Shown here in pieces: positions 46,003 to 51,264 of a stretch of 64,000 nt of DNA. Below the pieces are notes generated by a model. That model had not been told where the DNA came from. It ran no database searches and saw nothing but the letters and a program-made list of their open reading frames with translations. The stretch covers positions 1-64,000 of the forward strand of contig JALONM010000010.1 of NCBI GenBank assembly GCA_025454925.1, read 5' to 3'. Each line of letters begins with the position of its first letter. Within the stretch, counting starts at the first letter, position 1. Both the position numbers and the translations under genes were made by a program. Origin of the DNA: Cytophagaceae bacterium (GTDB lineage Bacteria; Bacteroidota; Bacteroidia; Cytophagales; Cytophagaceae).

Positions 46003-46572
46003 ATGACCAAATCAGAAGTTTCACATATCATTCAAGGATGTCTCCAAAACGACAGGCAAAGTCAAAAAATACTATATAATTATTTGGTGCCTGAAATGAT
46101 GCGAATTGGAAGACGATATACCCGCAATACAGAAGACCTGAAAGATCTGGTGCAAGATTCCATGATGAAAGTTTTCAAGCACTTAAATTCTTTTAAAGGT
46201 GAAAGCGCCATTACTACTTGGGCCAACAGGATTATGATAAATCAAACCCTGAATAAAATCACCAAGGAGAGTAACAAGAAATTTGTAGATGAAGATGAAC
46301 CATTTTCTTCTATAGACGTATCATCAAATGATCATATCCATATAGAAGGTAAATTACTCGCTGAAGATTTGTTAAAATTTCTTGAGCAATTACCGGAAGG
46401 AAAAAGAGTAATTTTCAACTTATATGTAATCGATGGATATACACATAAAGAAATAGCAGAAATGCTGAATATCACAGAAAGTACATCCAAGGCTCAATTG
46501 AGCAAGGCAAAAGAAATTTTAATTAAGCTACACCAAAAGAGTAATCAGGATATTCGTGCAAAGGTATACTGA
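46003..46572 (+). CDS. ECF-type RNA polymerase sigma factor
   Basis: The 189-residue product has sigma region 2 (ILYNYLVPEMMRIGRRYTRNTEDLKDLVQDSMMKVFKHL) and region 4 (LPEGKRVIFNLYVIDGYTHKEIAEMLNITESTSKAQLSKAKEIL). This is a group 4 (ECF) factor. The next gene overlaps it by 17 nt and encodes a small single-helix membrane protein, the usual anti-sigma position. It faces the type B cargo/PorP/TPR-PD40 operon convergently, so a role in controlling T9SS-related genes is plausible by analogy to SigP of Porphyromonas, but this is inference. Confidence 0.93.
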   Translation: MTKSEVSHIIQGCLQNDRQSQKILYNYLVPEMMRIGRRYTRNTEDLKDLVQDSMMKVFKHLNSFKGESAITTWANRIMINQTLNKITKESNKKFVDEDEPFSSIDVSSNDHIHIEGKLLAEDLLKFLEQLPEGKRVIFNLYVIDGYTHKEIAEMLNITESTSKAQLSKAKEILIKLHQKSNQDIRAKVY

Positions 46573-47203
46573 AAATATTGACCAAATAGAAAACGTTTAC
46601 AGGGAGAATCTGAAAGAGTTACCTGTGGACACGGATGGCATGTGGGAAGCGTTTGAACAAAACCTTCCACCCGTGACACCCCTGCCCCCTGCAGCTCCGA
46701 CCGCTCCTGCTTCTTTATCCTGGCTACCTATCAGTATTGGATTAAACGTTGCCCTTGCGGGTGTTTCTCTTTACTTATATTGGAAAGTTACCCAACTATC
46801 CAATACAGAAATTCCCGGCAGCACGGAGGTTCCTACGGTTACTATTCCAGACAATAAAGAAGTAGAAGCCCTCCCTTCACCCAACGAAAAAAAGAACGTT
46901 GAATATCACTCCATAGAAAAGACTACTTCTAATTCCCCTACTGCAACCACCAGCAACAAGCAATCATCCTCTGTTCAAGGCGCGCCACTTGAATCGAACG
47001 AAAATGTTCAACCTAACAAGTCTACTGAAAGCAATACCTCTTCTGAAAAAATTCCTTCTTCAGAAGAAAACCCAGTACAGGTAGGTACAGAAAGTAATAC
47101 CAATCAAGTACCCAAACAATCCGTGCCTACAGAACCTGCTCCTTCCGATGATATCCGGGAGCACTACAAAGACAAAAAGGGGAACACCAAACTATTTAAA
47201 TAA
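46556..47203 (+). CDS. Single-helix membrane protein, probable anti-sigma partner
   Basis: The 215-residue product starts at a GTG 17 nt inside the sigma-factor gene. The N-terminal ~55 residues (YTENIDQIENVYRENLKELPVDTDGMWEAFEQNL) are cytoplasmic and acidic, followed by a Pro-rich stretch, a membrane helix at about 57-78 (WLPISIGLNVALAGVSLYLYW), and about 135 periplasmic residues rich in Ser, Glu, Asn and Thr. No zinc HxxxCxxC motif is seen. The position and topology suit an anti-sigma factor in the loose sense, but no family was recognised. It overlaps the convergent TPR-PD40 gene by 12 bp. Confidence 0.7.
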   Translation: MQRYTENIDQIENVYRENLKELPVDTDGMWEAFEQNLPPVTPLPPAAPTAPASLSWLPISIGLNVALAGVSLYLYWKVTQLSNTEIPGSTEVPTVTIPDNKEVEALPSPNEKKNVEYHSIEKTTSNSPTATTSNKQSSSVQGAPLESNENVQPNKSTESNTSSEKIPSSEENPVQVGTESNTNQVPKQSVPTEPAPSDDIREHYKDKKGNTKLFK

Positions 47204-48415
47204 GCATTCTGTAGCTTTCAATCGGTATATATCTTCTTTACCTTTACCACCAATTCGGTTGGAGGTAAACCAGGCTGTTTTCTGATCGTTGGAGAAGACC
47301 AGAGAAACATCATCCGCCCCGCTGTTGATGGGAGTTTTCATATTGAGAGGAGTTTGCCATACCCCCCGCTTAAAGCACGTCTTATAAATATCGAATCCAC
47401 CGAGTCCCCAATGTCCATTGCTGGAAAAGAATAGACTCCCATTGCATACAAACGGATAAATTTCATCCCCTTTGGTGTTGATACTGGGGCCCAAATGGAT
47501 GGGATCGCTCCACAAACTATCTTCTTTGATACACATGTATAAATCCCAGCCTCCTAAGCCTCCTGGCATATCCGAAGCGAAATAAAAAATTCCATTCGAT
47601 TCATCCAGAAATGGATAGGCATACGAATAACTGGTATCATTTAAGATAAACTCATACGGAGCACTCCAGCGATTATGAATTCGCTCACTGCAATACAACT
47701 TGAAATAAAAAAATTGCAGCTTATCTCTTTCTTGAGTTACTCGCCGGGTAAAGTAAACGGTATCTCCTCGATTGGTAAGGGAAGGAGCAAAATCATGTTC
47801 GCCGGTATTAATGCGCTCCGAAAACTTTTTCACCTCCCCGCCTTCGGCATAATGTAAATTAAAATAAGGATTGCCGTCGCTTTCATTTTTCTTTTTTAAT
47901 AAAACGCCTTCTCTGTTAGTAGAAAAAATAATACCCTTGCCCATTGGGAACGGTGATATATCGGAACCAGTGCTGTTATATGCTTCGTTTACCATATCAC
48001 AGGAGGTGGTTTTCCAGCGGTTAAGAGAATCAATGCGTGAAGCCAATACATTTTTTTGATGGGAGGCTGGCAAACGAGCTATAAAATTTGCCAATTCTGC
48101 ATACTGCCCGCAGGCATTCAAATTAAACACATGGGCAAACAATACATCTTCCCGGGCATGTTTGCGCAGCAGCTCTGTACTTGTTTCCAAGGCCTTCTGA
48201 AATTCCCCAGTTAACGAAAAGCAGGAAGACTTCAACAAATTTGCGTATACAAAATAATCGGATTTAGGAGGAATGCGGGATAATAATTCGATCGCTGCAC
48301 CATATTGTCCTAGCCGGTAACAAGCTTCCGCTTTTTCATAATCATGTCGGTCTAGCCAGGATTGGCCATATACTGGTATCTGCAACACAGATAACATAAA
48401 AAAGATTCGAATCAT
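47192..48415 (-). CDS. TPR-PD40 (PorE-like propeller) protein, module B
   Basis: The 407-residue product has a signal peptide ending VYGQ, TPR helices at about 18-130 and PD40-type propeller strands at about 150-400 (GKGIIFSTNREG, DTVYFTRRVTQ, GIFYFASDMPGGLGGWDLYM, LFFSSNGHWGLGGFDIY, AWFTSNRIGGKGKEDIY). It resembles the N-terminal half of the PorE-like protein at 8251-12000 but lacks the OmpA domain, so it cannot anchor to peptidoglycan that way. It is last in an operon with the PorP-like gene (4-nt overlap) and a type B cargo gene. It overlaps the anti-sigma-like gene by 12 bp convergently. Confidence 0.87.
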   Translation of the reverse strand: MIRIFFMLSVLQIPVYGQSWLDRHDYEKAEACYRLGQYGAAIELLSRIPPKSDYFVYANLLKSSCFSLTGEFQKALETSTELLRKHAREDVLFAHVFNLNACGQYAELANFIARLPASHQKNVLASRIDSLNRWKTTSCDMVNEAYNSTGSDISPFPMGKGIIFSTNREGVLLKKKNESDGNPYFNLHYAEGGEVKKFSERINTGEHDFAPSLTNRGDTVYFTRRVTQERDKLQFFYFKLYCSERIHNRWSAPYEFILNDTSYSYAYPFLDESNGIFYFASDMPGGLGGWDLYMCIKEDSLWSDPIHLGPSINTKGDEIYPFVCNGSLFFSSNGHWGLGGFDIYKTCFKRGVWQTPLNMKTPINSGADDVSLVFSNDQKTAWFTSNRIGGKGKEDIYRLKATECLFK

Positions 48416-49332
48416 AAAATACGTAAATGATTTCCGGAGGGTAAAACCGAATCAGAATGTTTTGTTTTTTTAAATCGAAATACCAAGCCAAGCTCGTGTC
48501 GTGGGCGGGCTGAAAGAACGTGATTGGAATACGATACATCAAAGGCATACATGATACTAACAGGAAATCGCAAGGCAGGAATAGCTCCATGCAGATCAAT
48601 TCCTGCCAATAAAAATACATCGCTGTTGGATCGGGTACCAGCTCCCAACCAGCCAAGACGGTGTTGAATGGCTGCAGAGGCTTCTGCAAGATAATTGGCC
48701 TTAATACCCCGCACTTGCGCAGAAACTCTTAAGCCATATGCCTGATTTAAAGAAAAGATTCTGGATACATGCCCCAGATAATAATAGGAGCTGGCGATCT
48801 TCAGATGCTCCGGGAAACCGAGCACTTTCTGAAAACTGGATCCCATCAACCATTTGGAATCAAAATATGAAACACCCGCGCCTATATCAAACTTAGACCA
48901 GGATTGTTGTAAAGCTACAAAATCAGGGTCCGAAAGATGCTTGGGATTAATAGCTCCTGCATCATACCCAAATTGCTTCCATCCTGGACTCATGCCAAAT
49001 GATAAAAAACCTTTCGCGCAGCGGATTTTGTATGAAATTAAAGCTTGCGCAGAAAATGTATTTAATCCGAAATACGAATCCTGTATAATCTTAGCCCCTA
49101 ATCCCAAACGATAATAATTTGCTGGCATAGAGAATGTTATACCTGTTGTTTTAGGCACCCAATCCTCTTTTCCAGCTTGCTGCTTATTGAGCAGACATAC
49201 CAGCAATTCCGGCTGCGAACCAGCCAAGGAAGGATTGAAAAACACCGAAGAAGCATGCAATTGAGAAAACAAATACAATTGCTGTGCACTCAGCAAAAAT
49301 GGTATCCCTAAAAAGATTAAGAAATATTTCAT
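48412..49332 (-). CDS. PorP/SprF-family outer-membrane protein, module B
   Basis: The 306-residue product has a signal peptide (IFLGIPFLLSAQQ), LYLFSQLHASSVFFNPSLAGSQPELLVCLLNKQQ as the family opening and beta-barrel strands ending ARPRHELGLVFRF. It is diverged from the module A PorP but shares the layout. It starts 3 bp after the type B cargo gene stops and overlaps the next gene by 4 nt. This tight order supports a dedicated cargo-PorP-TPR/PD40 unit. Confidence 0.88.
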   Translation of the reverse strand: MKYFLIFLGIPFLLSAQQLYLFSQLHASSVFFNPSLAGSQPELLVCLLNKQQAGKEDWVPKTTGITFSMPANYYRLGLGAKIIQDSYFGLNTFSAQALISYKIRCAKGFLSFGMSPGWKQFGYDAGAINPKHLSDPDFVALQQSWSKFDIGAGVSYFDSKWLMGSSFQKVLGFPEHLKIASSYYYLGHVSRIFSLNQAYGLRVSAQVRGIKANYLAEASAAIQHRLGWLGAGTRSNSDVFLLAGIDLHGAIPALRFPVSIMYAFDVSYSNHVLSARPRHELGLVFRFKKTKHSDSVLPSGNHLRIL

Positions 49333-49335
49333 ATA

Positions 49336-51123
49336 CTATTTTACTAAGTGAATAATACCCCGCTTATGAATCTCTTCCAAATCAAAATAAACGAGTTCGT
49401 AGGTATAATTGCCTGCCGGAAGATGCTGGCCATTCCAATCATTCAAATATTCTTGGCTTTCAAATACAAGTCTCGACCAACGATCGTAGATCCATAATTG
49501 GCAAGGTCGTTGTTTAGGAATCTGCACTTCAAAATATTCATTTAAGCCGTCCGAATCAGGACTTACAAAGTTAAACACTGCAAACTCACAGTCAAAGTAC
49601 GAGCTGGCATCTATTCTCCAAATAGTATCTGCGGCGGCTAGCATTCCATTTGCAGCAGCCCTTACTTCCAATTCAATCCAACCGGGTCCTTCTACCTGTA
49701 AGATAGAATCGTCGATACTTGCTTGTCCACTCAACAAGGTAAAGGATTGAATTTGGTTTTCGGTAGAAACACTTTGCAATGAAACCCGCCGCATTTCACA
49801 TGATAAGGACTGCAATCCAGGAAGCCTTACATATTGATTAAATCGTATCAGCGGCCCTTTGTCTTCAGCGGCTAATTTATACACGACAGGATCGTTCTGT
49901 GCACTGATTTGTGTGCCGGCGACAAATACATTTCCTTCGCTGGAAACAACCAAGGATCGGCCTATTATGCCGGTTGGCAAAAGATAAAAGCCATTGTTCC
50001 CAAAATTTTGCTTTATACTTCCTTCCGCACTCAGACGTGTTATAAACCATCGTCCTGATCCCATGCCTGAAAATAAGATTTCCTGGTTGGGCAACACTTC
50101 TAAGCCAAACCAATATTCGGTTTGGGTAGCGCTGAAAAAATTCATTAAGGGCGAGCTATTAAAACTCATGGAAGTAAAGTCCCCATCTTCATTCACCTGA
50201 AAAATAAATGGAGCCTGAACACTATTCGTATTATAAGTATATCCAATCACTGTGATCAATCCGTTCTTATACACATACGAGGTAACCAGCAAATCATGTT
50301 CAGAAAGGATGGGCAAACTTTGATATCCGAAATTTCCAAAACTTGGATCGATGCTTCGGTCCGAATTCAGCCGAACAAGTCGTAATCCGAAATTGCCATT
50401 GTCGTAAGTAGACAATGGAAGTAGAACCTTTTGATCTGACAAGGAAATGACTGCGTTGGATACCTGCTGAATAGGAGCCGGAAATAAAGTAAATTCTTGC
50501 GCATTGGCATCTTTACGAATATTTCCAAGACTATCTATTTCTACCAGAATTACGCCCCAGTAACCATTATTCATGGATAGGTTGGTTCGATAAATCCCTT
50601 GCATCAATATTCCACCTTGTGCTCGTTCGCTTGCATCTGCCAGCCGAATACCATACCCGGTTGCAATTTGAATTTGCCCATTCACACCAAAACAAGTCGT
50701 GTAGGGGCCTCCCGCAGGTTGTGAACATGATGGAAGAATTCCATCGGCAGAAAGCTTCAAAACAGAAATGGTAGAATCTGCCTCGTCGGCCACTAGTAAA
50801 AGTAATTTCCCTGAACTAAGTTTTTTCAAAAAACAAAACTTGGGAATGCGCGAAAAGGTATGGGTAAAAAATCCATGAGTGGCAAAGCTTGAATCGGGTG
50901 CTCCATTCGGATTCAACCGTACCACCGATACGCTTTTATTACTGGAATTTACTGAAGCGGAAATCGTTCTTCCAAGGTCATCCACAAGCATTGCGTTCAT
51001 AATCCCCGGATGTCCTTTAAATCTTCCATTTACGGCATAAGAACTATCAATGCTTACGCCTTGGCCGGGCAGCATGCATAGACTAAACAGCCCTAGGGCA
51101 ATACAAGTAATTTTTACTAGCAT
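49336..51123 (-). CDS. Delta-60-repeat surface protein with type B T9SS domain
   Basis: From the ATG at 51123 the product has 595 residues, with a signal peptide (MLVKITCIALGLFSLCMLPGQG). An alternative TTG 15 bp upstream is less likely. Most of the body is delta-60-type beta-propeller repeats (VVRLNPNGAPDSSFATHGFF, RLNSDRSIDPSFGNFGY, FITRLSAEGSIKQNFGNNGFY). The C-terminus is a type B sorting domain (FNFVSPDSDGLNEYFEV, LWIYDRWSRLVFES, YLNDWNGQHLPAGNYTYELVYF). It is exported by the T9SS and is first gene of the module B operon. Function unknown; an adhesin or sensor is possible. Confidence 0.85.
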   Translation of the reverse strand: MLVKITCIALGLFSLCMLPGQGVSIDSSYAVNGRFKGHPGIMNAMLVDDLGRTISASVNSSNKSVSVVRLNPNGAPDSSFATHGFFTHTFSRIPKFCFLKKLSSGKLLLLVADEADSTISVLKLSADGILPSCSQPAGGPYTTCFGVNGQIQIATGYGIRLADASERAQGGILMQGIYRTNLSMNNGYWGVILVEIDSLGNIRKDANAQEFTLFPAPIQQVSNAVISLSDQKVLLPLSTYDNGNFGLRLVRLNSDRSIDPSFGNFGYQSLPILSEHDLLVTSYVYKNGLITVIGYTYNTNSVQAPFIFQVNEDGDFTSMSFNSSPLMNFFSATQTEYWFGLEVLPNQEILFSGMGSGRWFITRLSAEGSIKQNFGNNGFYLLPTGIIGRSLVVSSEGNVFVAGTQISAQNDPVVYKLAAEDKGPLIRFNQYVRLPGLQSLSCEMRRVSLQSVSTENQIQSFTLLSGQASIDDSILQVEGPGWIELEVRAAANGMLAAADTIWRIDASSYFDCEFAVFNFVSPDSDGLNEYFEVQIPKQRPCQLWIYDRWSRLVFESQEYLNDWNGQHLPAGNYTYELVYFDLEEIHKRGIIHLVK

Positions 51124-51264
51124 AAAGTGTTGGGGCAAATCAAATTTACAAAATTATACACGTATTTAATATTCGATACTTTCAATATTCATAGAATTAA
51201 TTATCCTTTCGACACATTTTAAACTTAATTTCATCTTAGAAATTCTGTTTTAACGAAATGACAA

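Follow-up and report, generated by a model that had tools for sequence, protein, structure and literature searches.

A conserved five-gene locus of Cytophagales that groups genes for a type IX surface complex with those for an ECF sigma factor and a putative anti-sigma partner

The DNA analysed here, referred to as the window, is a stretch of 64,000 nucleotides from a Cytophagaceae bacterium (assembly GCA_025454925.1, contig JALONM010000010.1, positions 1 to 64,000). Between positions 46,003 and 51,123 it carries genes for an extracytoplasmic function (ECF) sigma factor, an inner-membrane partner with a single helix, a type B cargo of the type IX secretion system (T9SS), a PorP/SprF-family outer-membrane barrel and a short periplasmic PorE-like protein with TPR and PD40 repeats. 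The same five-gene set was found at 12 loci in 11 genomes, representing seven genera and two families, and this association is more than chance. We propose, at a probability of about 0.52, that the five genes form a unit for signalling across the cell envelope, with a type IX surface complex as its basis; the tail of the partner would dock on PorE/PorP, and a change of state of the complex would free the sigma factor.

Organization of the locus

The features of the locus are as follows.

46003..46572, + strand: ECF sigma factor, 189 amino acids (aa); Sigma70_r2 and r4_2 above cut-off, TIGR02937 E 2e-29
46556..47203, + strand: membrane partner, putative anti-sigma factor, 215 aa, GTG start
46724..46801, + strand: predicted transmembrane (TM) helix of the partner, residues 57-82, from sequence and AlphaFold
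47180..47200, + strand: C-terminal tail of the partner, GNTKLFK, with the (L/I/V)F motif
47192..47203, no strand: 12-bp overlap between the 3' ends of the two convergent groups; LFK-stop ends both frames
47192..48415, - strand: short PorE-like TPR/PD40 protein, 407 aa; signal peptide, TPR helices, PD40 propeller
48412..49332, - strand: PorP/SprF-family outer-membrane barrel, 306 aa; PF11751 E 2.7e-29, TIGR03519 107.6 bits
49336..51123, - strand: T9SS cargo with signal peptide, delta-60/DUF5122 repeats and type B sorting domain; ATG start
49348..49578, - strand: type B C-terminal sorting domain (CHU_C) of the cargo; PF13585 E 3.1e-14, residues 521-597

The sigma and partner genes on the + strand converge with the cargo, PorP and TPR/PD40 genes on the - strand. 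The former two overlap by 17 nt, as do their homologues in genus g5 (L094-L096), while the PorP and TPR/PD40 genes overlap by 4 nt and the cargo and PorP genes are separated by a 3-nt gap. An alternative TTG start of the cargo gene lies at 51138. The first-pass annotation, made from the sequence alone, had described these five genes, their spacing and strands as well as the 12-bp 3' overlap, and both the sequence and the family searches agree with it. A functional meaning of the LFK ends at this overlap was considered and dropped; it is taken as a coincidence because other PorE proteins end differently. Inspection by eye of the regions upstream of the sigma and cargo genes, with no statistical motif test, gave no convincing shared promoter.

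The five-gene unit in other genomes

The 12 loci are distributed over the window's own genome, G004, G010, G014, G017, G066, G052, G117, G142, G079 (twice) and G104, which belong to genera g1, g5, g29, g47, g54, g64 and g71 of families f1 and f20. When the window sigma factor was searched in 194 genomes of the order, 29 places were found, three of them in its own genome. The seven best foreign relatives (L068-L074, in G004, G014, G066, G010, G052, G142 and G117) are accompanied by a partner gene and a convergent PorE-like gene, whereas the remaining 19 of the 26 foreign loci (L075-L093) lack the unit (Fisher p 1.5e-6, with the window sigma as sole query). The whole convergent unit occurs in four of four g5 genomes (G004, G010, G014, G017) and in G066, G142, G117 and G052. 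Gene calling discards any gene sharing 60 nt or more with a longer gene, and the PorP gene of G052 was identified separately. Among the 80 best named sigma loci listed, only L104 (CAMFLX010000019.1, from an uncultured Cytophagales metagenome-assembled genome), which we took as the same genome as G066, carries the unit.

Relatives of the partner were reached only by alignment-based search, a single-sequence search in 58 other genomes having returned none. With a partner alignment of 11 rows (A2), a search of 390 genomes of the order gave 12 members, either strong or full-length matches, spread over 11 genomes; all but one were rows of the alignment itself. The new member was found in G079 (C9); at locus L219 of this genome, cargo, PorP, short PorE, sigma and partner follow one another in that order on one strand. 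A short-PorE alignment of 12 rows (A3), searched over the same genomes, gave at least five further short-PorE frames under 460 aa, and the members new through this search are those of G009, G104, G153 and G079 (C42). G104 and C42, the second locus of G079, again carry the convergent five-gene unit. G009 has the PorP-PorE half on one contig and a sigma/partner pair with an LF tail on another, and G153, a genome 68% complete, has cargo, PorP and PorE on a 7-kb contig without a sigma gene. Both alignments were built mostly from loci of the sigma search, so strong matches in the genomes of that search are by construction.

In total, 16 short PorE genes were counted, and 12 of them adjoin a sigma/partner pair; the other four are C66 of the window's genome and those of G003, G009 and G153. 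A 419-aa frame in G017 (C30) was left uncounted because its contig ends inside the gene. Every one of the 11 partner-positive genomes among the 390 has a short PorE, which occurs in 14 genomes. Long PorE genes behave differently: a sigma gene lies within four genes of none of 27, against 12 of the 16 short ones (Fisher p 1.2e-7), where the 27 are 22 genes (529-849 aa) in 20 regions plus five from the window's genome, and the 20 regions are the best-scoring long matches, several of them cut by contig ends. The first-pass annotation had tied its proposal to a conserved association of the five families elsewhere, and such an association does exist, in the 12 loci described above.

In one family, a T9SS-like accessory gene with a 'QAFNYQGIARD'-like start also accompanies the unit (L098, L100, L101 and L219). 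It lies once next to the sigma gene and otherwise next to the cargo gene, and three loci have a neighbouring gene of 156-157 aa.

The membrane partner

The partner is composed of a cytoplasmic domain of ~53 aa, one TM helix, a disordered tether of ~130 aa and a short tail. In its AlphaFold model, helices at residues 8-20, 29-35 and 57-82 are followed by disorder (mean predicted local distance difference test, pLDDT, 52.9). No Pfam or NCBIfam family matched the protein at E 0.1, hence it has no recognisable FecR domain. A C-terminal outer-membrane beta-barrel is also absent, the protein ending after ~130 disordered residues with no Pfam match; as a control, Pfam OMP_b-brl_2 was detected in three of the four long partners scanned (L172, L112 and L164, not L106).

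The partners of related sigma factors are informative about the cytoplasmic part. These ~50 aa matched the alignment of 37 such partners of at least 380 aa (hhalign 95.1%, E 8.8e-9) and that of 31 shorter ones (96.2%), compared with 0-0.1% for six column-shuffled controls. The C-termini of many long partners resemble outer-membrane barrels, and most partners have a W motif in the cytoplasmic domain. These features suggest that the window protein is of anti-sigma type and follows the plan of the Dma proteins minus the barrel, a 'split Dma'.

At the other end of the protein, (L/I/V)F occurs among the final eight residues of every partner in the group (15 of 15, counting the three unlinked ones). 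Of 33 control partners shorter than 380 aa, two have the same motif, and shuffling the last 110 residues of each protein gives an expectation of 0.43 of 15. The tail is kept across the group and the linker is not. In all 15 pairs the sigma and partner genes are adjacent.

The short PorE, PorP and the cargo

The TPR/PD40 protein aligns to positions 23-419 of the 648 positions of the PorE model NF052230, with a score of 165 against a cut-off of 600. It covers the first two thirds of the model only, and therefore the carboxypeptidase-like (CRD) and OmpA parts are missing; absence of the OmpA anchor had been noted in the first-pass annotation. PD40 matched above cut-off and TPR weakly. The AlphaFold model, built on a 12-row alignment (pLDDT 78.8), has helices to residue 132 and strands at 141-400. 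Its best matches in the PDB are GH43-type propellers (3k1u, Z 20.0, root-mean-square deviation 3.1, 231 aligned), a resemblance which in a predicted model says something about fold, not about enzyme activity. No PorE entry is present among the 50 structure matches listed, a list that covers well only residues 136-407 and excludes nothing. PorE-like proteins of the different units are ~30% identical. A single search with the TPR/PD40 protein in its own genome was too broad (39 matches), and the unit was defined by alignment search and frame length.

The PorP protein exceeds the TIGR03519 cut-off of 90.55, and PF11751 is also above cut-off. In the 19 genomes of the family search its relatives are remote, the closest foreign one being 31% identical, and the window's genome has 29 PF11751 matches, some of them fragments. 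For the cargo, CHU_C is above cut-off and TIGR04131, at 34.7 bits, lies just under its cut-off of 35. Cargo size across units ranges from ~150 aa, with little beyond the sorting domain (L098, L219), up to 600 aa, and the g5 cargo has leucine-rich repeats (L095).

PorP genes that precede a PorE gene, in the window's genome and at related loci, mostly end in SPxxF-like tails, while some other PorPs end in CPxF-like tails. In Flavobacterium johnsoniae, the CxC tail of SprF bonds GldK (PMC12635249). PorP C-terminal tails may sort paralogues by periplasmic partner.

Other links between anti-sigma-like proteins and T9SS components

The window's genome harbours six copies of a second module (L002, L003/L224, L004, L007, L036 and L045), comprising a divergent PorP, an ECF sigma factor of another kind and an anti-sigma-like protein of 354-368 aa. 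The latter has a single TM helix and, at its C-terminus, an immunoglobulin (Ig) domain resembling a C-terminal sorting domain (CTD), with weak Pfam matches to FlgD_ig and CHU_C in the two proteins scanned. A cargo with leucine-rich repeats or a CTD often comes after the module, and in one of the six copies (C68) a cargo gene lies in between. Matches to an alignment of this protein occur in 30 of the 118 genomes searched within the order, as many as 12 in a single genome. At 14 of 14 sampled loci (L282-L295, one per genome, chosen as near full-length matches or covering most of the model), a PorP-like gene and a sigma gene stand beside it, the sigma genes of L283, L292 and L293 having been identified separately. 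In 296 genomes across the phylum, one further, partial match was obtained, from within the order. The cytoplasmic domain of this second class is unrelated to that of the window partner (hhalign 0.3%).

A type B sorting domain was also detected in Dma-like partners at L145 (Fluviicola chungangensis), L159 (Crocinitomix catalasitica), L126 and L120 (CHU_C E 2e-10 to 7e-17). These proteins have a small N-terminus with the W motif, a hydrophobic stretch and the C-terminal sorting domain, and each would be an inner-membrane regulator carrying a secretion signal. The second module and the CHU_C-bearing partners are independent reasons to consider that anti-sigma proteins and the PorP/type B machinery have been joined on more than one occasion.

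Two further arrangements were noted. At L260 (G017, C30), genes for a sigma factor, a CTD-bearing anti-sigma, a cargo with a CTD, PorP and a PorE truncated at the contig edge lie on one strand, apparently uniting the PorP-PorE and CTD-anti-sigma themes in one operon. At L221 and L222 (C76 and C30 of the window's genome), a sigma gene and an anti-sigma-like gene are accompanied by a gene of 349-379 aa whose product starts with 'NPSFAGS' or 'YQPSFVGS' and has no Pfam match; these products are perhaps very divergent PorPs.

It is a tentative and somewhat doubtful generalization that the order has repeatedly built T9SS wires from the surface to the cytoplasm, with anti-sigma factors that have no barrel of their own docking on PorP barrels, either by a short tail bound to a PorE that lacks OmpA, as in the window's unit, or by a fused CTD-like domain, as in the second module and in the Fluviicola and Crocinitomix proteins. 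In its boldest form, a CTD-bearing anti-sigma would itself be handled by the T9SS and would form one chain from cytoplasm to surface, reporting secretion.

A possible route from the surface complex to the sigma factor

The gene set, its domains, their linkage and the partner tail can be read directly from the sequences. From them we infer inhibition of the sigma factor by the partner, a docking site, a direction of signalling and a regulon. The partner would be an anti-sigma factor, a Dma without its own barrel, that holds the ECF sigma factor by its cytoplasmic domain. Its tail would dock on the short PorE or on PorP at the outer membrane, from where the tether would cross the periplasm to the TM helix and to the cytoplasmic domain bound to sigma. 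In this way the OmpA peptidoglycan anchor of PorE would have been exchanged for a wire to a sigma factor. Cargo loading, loss, a ligand or pull could change the cargo-PorP-PorE complex, the partner would be released and sigma freed, and the freed sigma probably controls the unit's own genes.

Several observations weigh against this proposal. The layout in the window is convergent, and the two halves are therefore not one operon. Unlinked halves exist in the window's genome (the C34 pair and the C66 PorP-PorE unit), in G003, where sigma/partner and PorP-short PorE lie on separate contigs, and in G009 and G153. The 12 loci cannot be counted as so many independent events, with four from g5 and two from g71, and a sample of 395 genomes from across the phylum contained no further full-length partner outside the order. 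In G104 and at G079 C42 the cytoplasmic domain of the partner has no W motif, the tail motif is short and its pattern was picked after inspecting the sequences, and the window PorP has neither the SPxF-like tail common to most of its relatives nor a CPxF-like tail. The suggestion in the first-pass annotation of a surface unit with its own signalling, possibly a sensing circuit, is partly supported: it is strengthened by the conserved linkage, the anti-sigma-like domain, the tether and the tail, and weakened by the lineage limits of the unit and the separation of its halves in some genomes.

The strongest rival, which we nevertheless consider unlikely, is that the cargo-PorP-PorE genes are a target and not a sensor. 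The sigma/partner pair would then sense something else, such as envelope stress as in Dma/Das, and the three genes would be a nearby part of its regulon. ECF sigma genes often adjoin their targets, and the convergent layout provides a separate promoter for each half. T9SS genes are also under the control of SigP in Porphyromonas gingivalis (PMC7712824). This explanation leaves unaccounted for why linkage is restricted to the OmpA-less PorE (12/16 versus 0/27), and why a common tail stands where a barrel would be expected to terminate the tether.

Common descent could also have kept two functionally unconnected gene groups in synteny. In a tree of 87 sigma factors, a branch supported at 97/91 has all 12 sigmas of the unit, together with two unlinked LF ones, on the same side; the third unlinked LF sigma (G009) lies outside, and several rows are long-branched. 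As the partner is also lineage-limited, descent explains part of the sharing. The flanks tell otherwise: BLAST of 106 flanking genes revealed none common to the window and any other genus, the sole gene common to g5 and g71 is distantly similar (24% identity), g29 and g71 have one close gene in common, g47, g54 and g71 have the T9SS-like accessory gene family in common, and the contig of G104 has no flank. As flanks are not kept, descent alone is insufficient for the grouping, although the several loci of g5, and likewise those of g71, cannot be treated as independent. The unit has also been retained despite the changed orientation at L219 and the low identity of the PorE-like proteins, and G003 and G009 still possess both halves although these are no longer linked there, which makes an inherited neighbourhood without function quite improbable. 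Even less probable, in our opinion, is a purely structural role, in which the partner would anchor the PorE-like protein to the inner membrane in replacement of the OmpA-peptidoglycan contact, with sigma as a bystander on the same transcript. The absence of OmpA does coincide with the presence of the partner, and the tail, unlike the linker, is conserved, but the cytoplasmic part is homologous to other ECF-linked partners and the sigma and partner genes are adjacent in every pair.

Type B cargo and PorP/PorE complexes are so far known as surface anchors. If some PorP/PorE complexes are sigma-wired sensors, as we propose, the large sets of PorP paralogues become in part a signalling repertoire. 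That would account simply for a PorE lacking its wall anchor, and would suggest, in testable form, how cells could monitor what they display at the surface.

Comparison with known systems

In the FecA-FecR-FecI system, an inner-membrane protein that spans the membrane once relays the signal of an outer-membrane protein to an ECF sigma factor. The window unit differs from it in having neither a FecR domain nor a TonB-dependent receptor, its barrel being a PorP. The PorA-PorXY-SigP pathway likewise leads from a surface T9SS protein, with a CTD, to an ECF sigma factor (PMC7712824). It does so via a two-component system, without a linked anti-sigma protein, and controls genes for T9SS components.

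A complex of PorE, PorP and the type B cargo PG1035 is known from P. gingivalis; PorP binds both of the other proteins, and the proposed role of the OmpA domain is to link PorE to peptidoglycan (PMC9143113). Five operons of F. johnsoniae combine a type B cargo gene with SprF-like and PorE-like ones (PMC12618676). The window unit shares with these the type B cargo, the PorP/SprF-like barrel and the TPR-propeller PorE homologue, but its PorE ends after the propeller, without the CRD and the OmpA peptidoglycan anchor. No sigma or anti-sigma gene is described beside the P. gingivalis and F. johnsoniae units in the available portions of these two papers, and no description of a PorP/PorE unit linked to an anti-sigma gene was found in the open-licence literature searched, as far as its available text goes.

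The published plan of Dma1/Dma2 comprises an anti-sigma-type domain, a TM helix, a tether and an outer-membrane barrel of its own, with an ECF sigma factor being held (PMC13088901). The window partner resembles it in adjoining an ECF sigma gene and in having one TM helix and a long disordered tether; a likeness of the N-terminal domain is suggested by way of the 37 long, mostly barrel-ending partners of related sigma factors. In contrast to Dma, the window partner has a short tail instead of a fused barrel, and its unit has a separately encoded PorP barrel and PorE-like propeller within a T9SS cargo unit. The parts are of known kinds; their combination, of an OmpA-less PorE T9SS complex, an ECF sigma factor and a barrel-less Dma-like partner, was not encountered among the open-licence papers listed.

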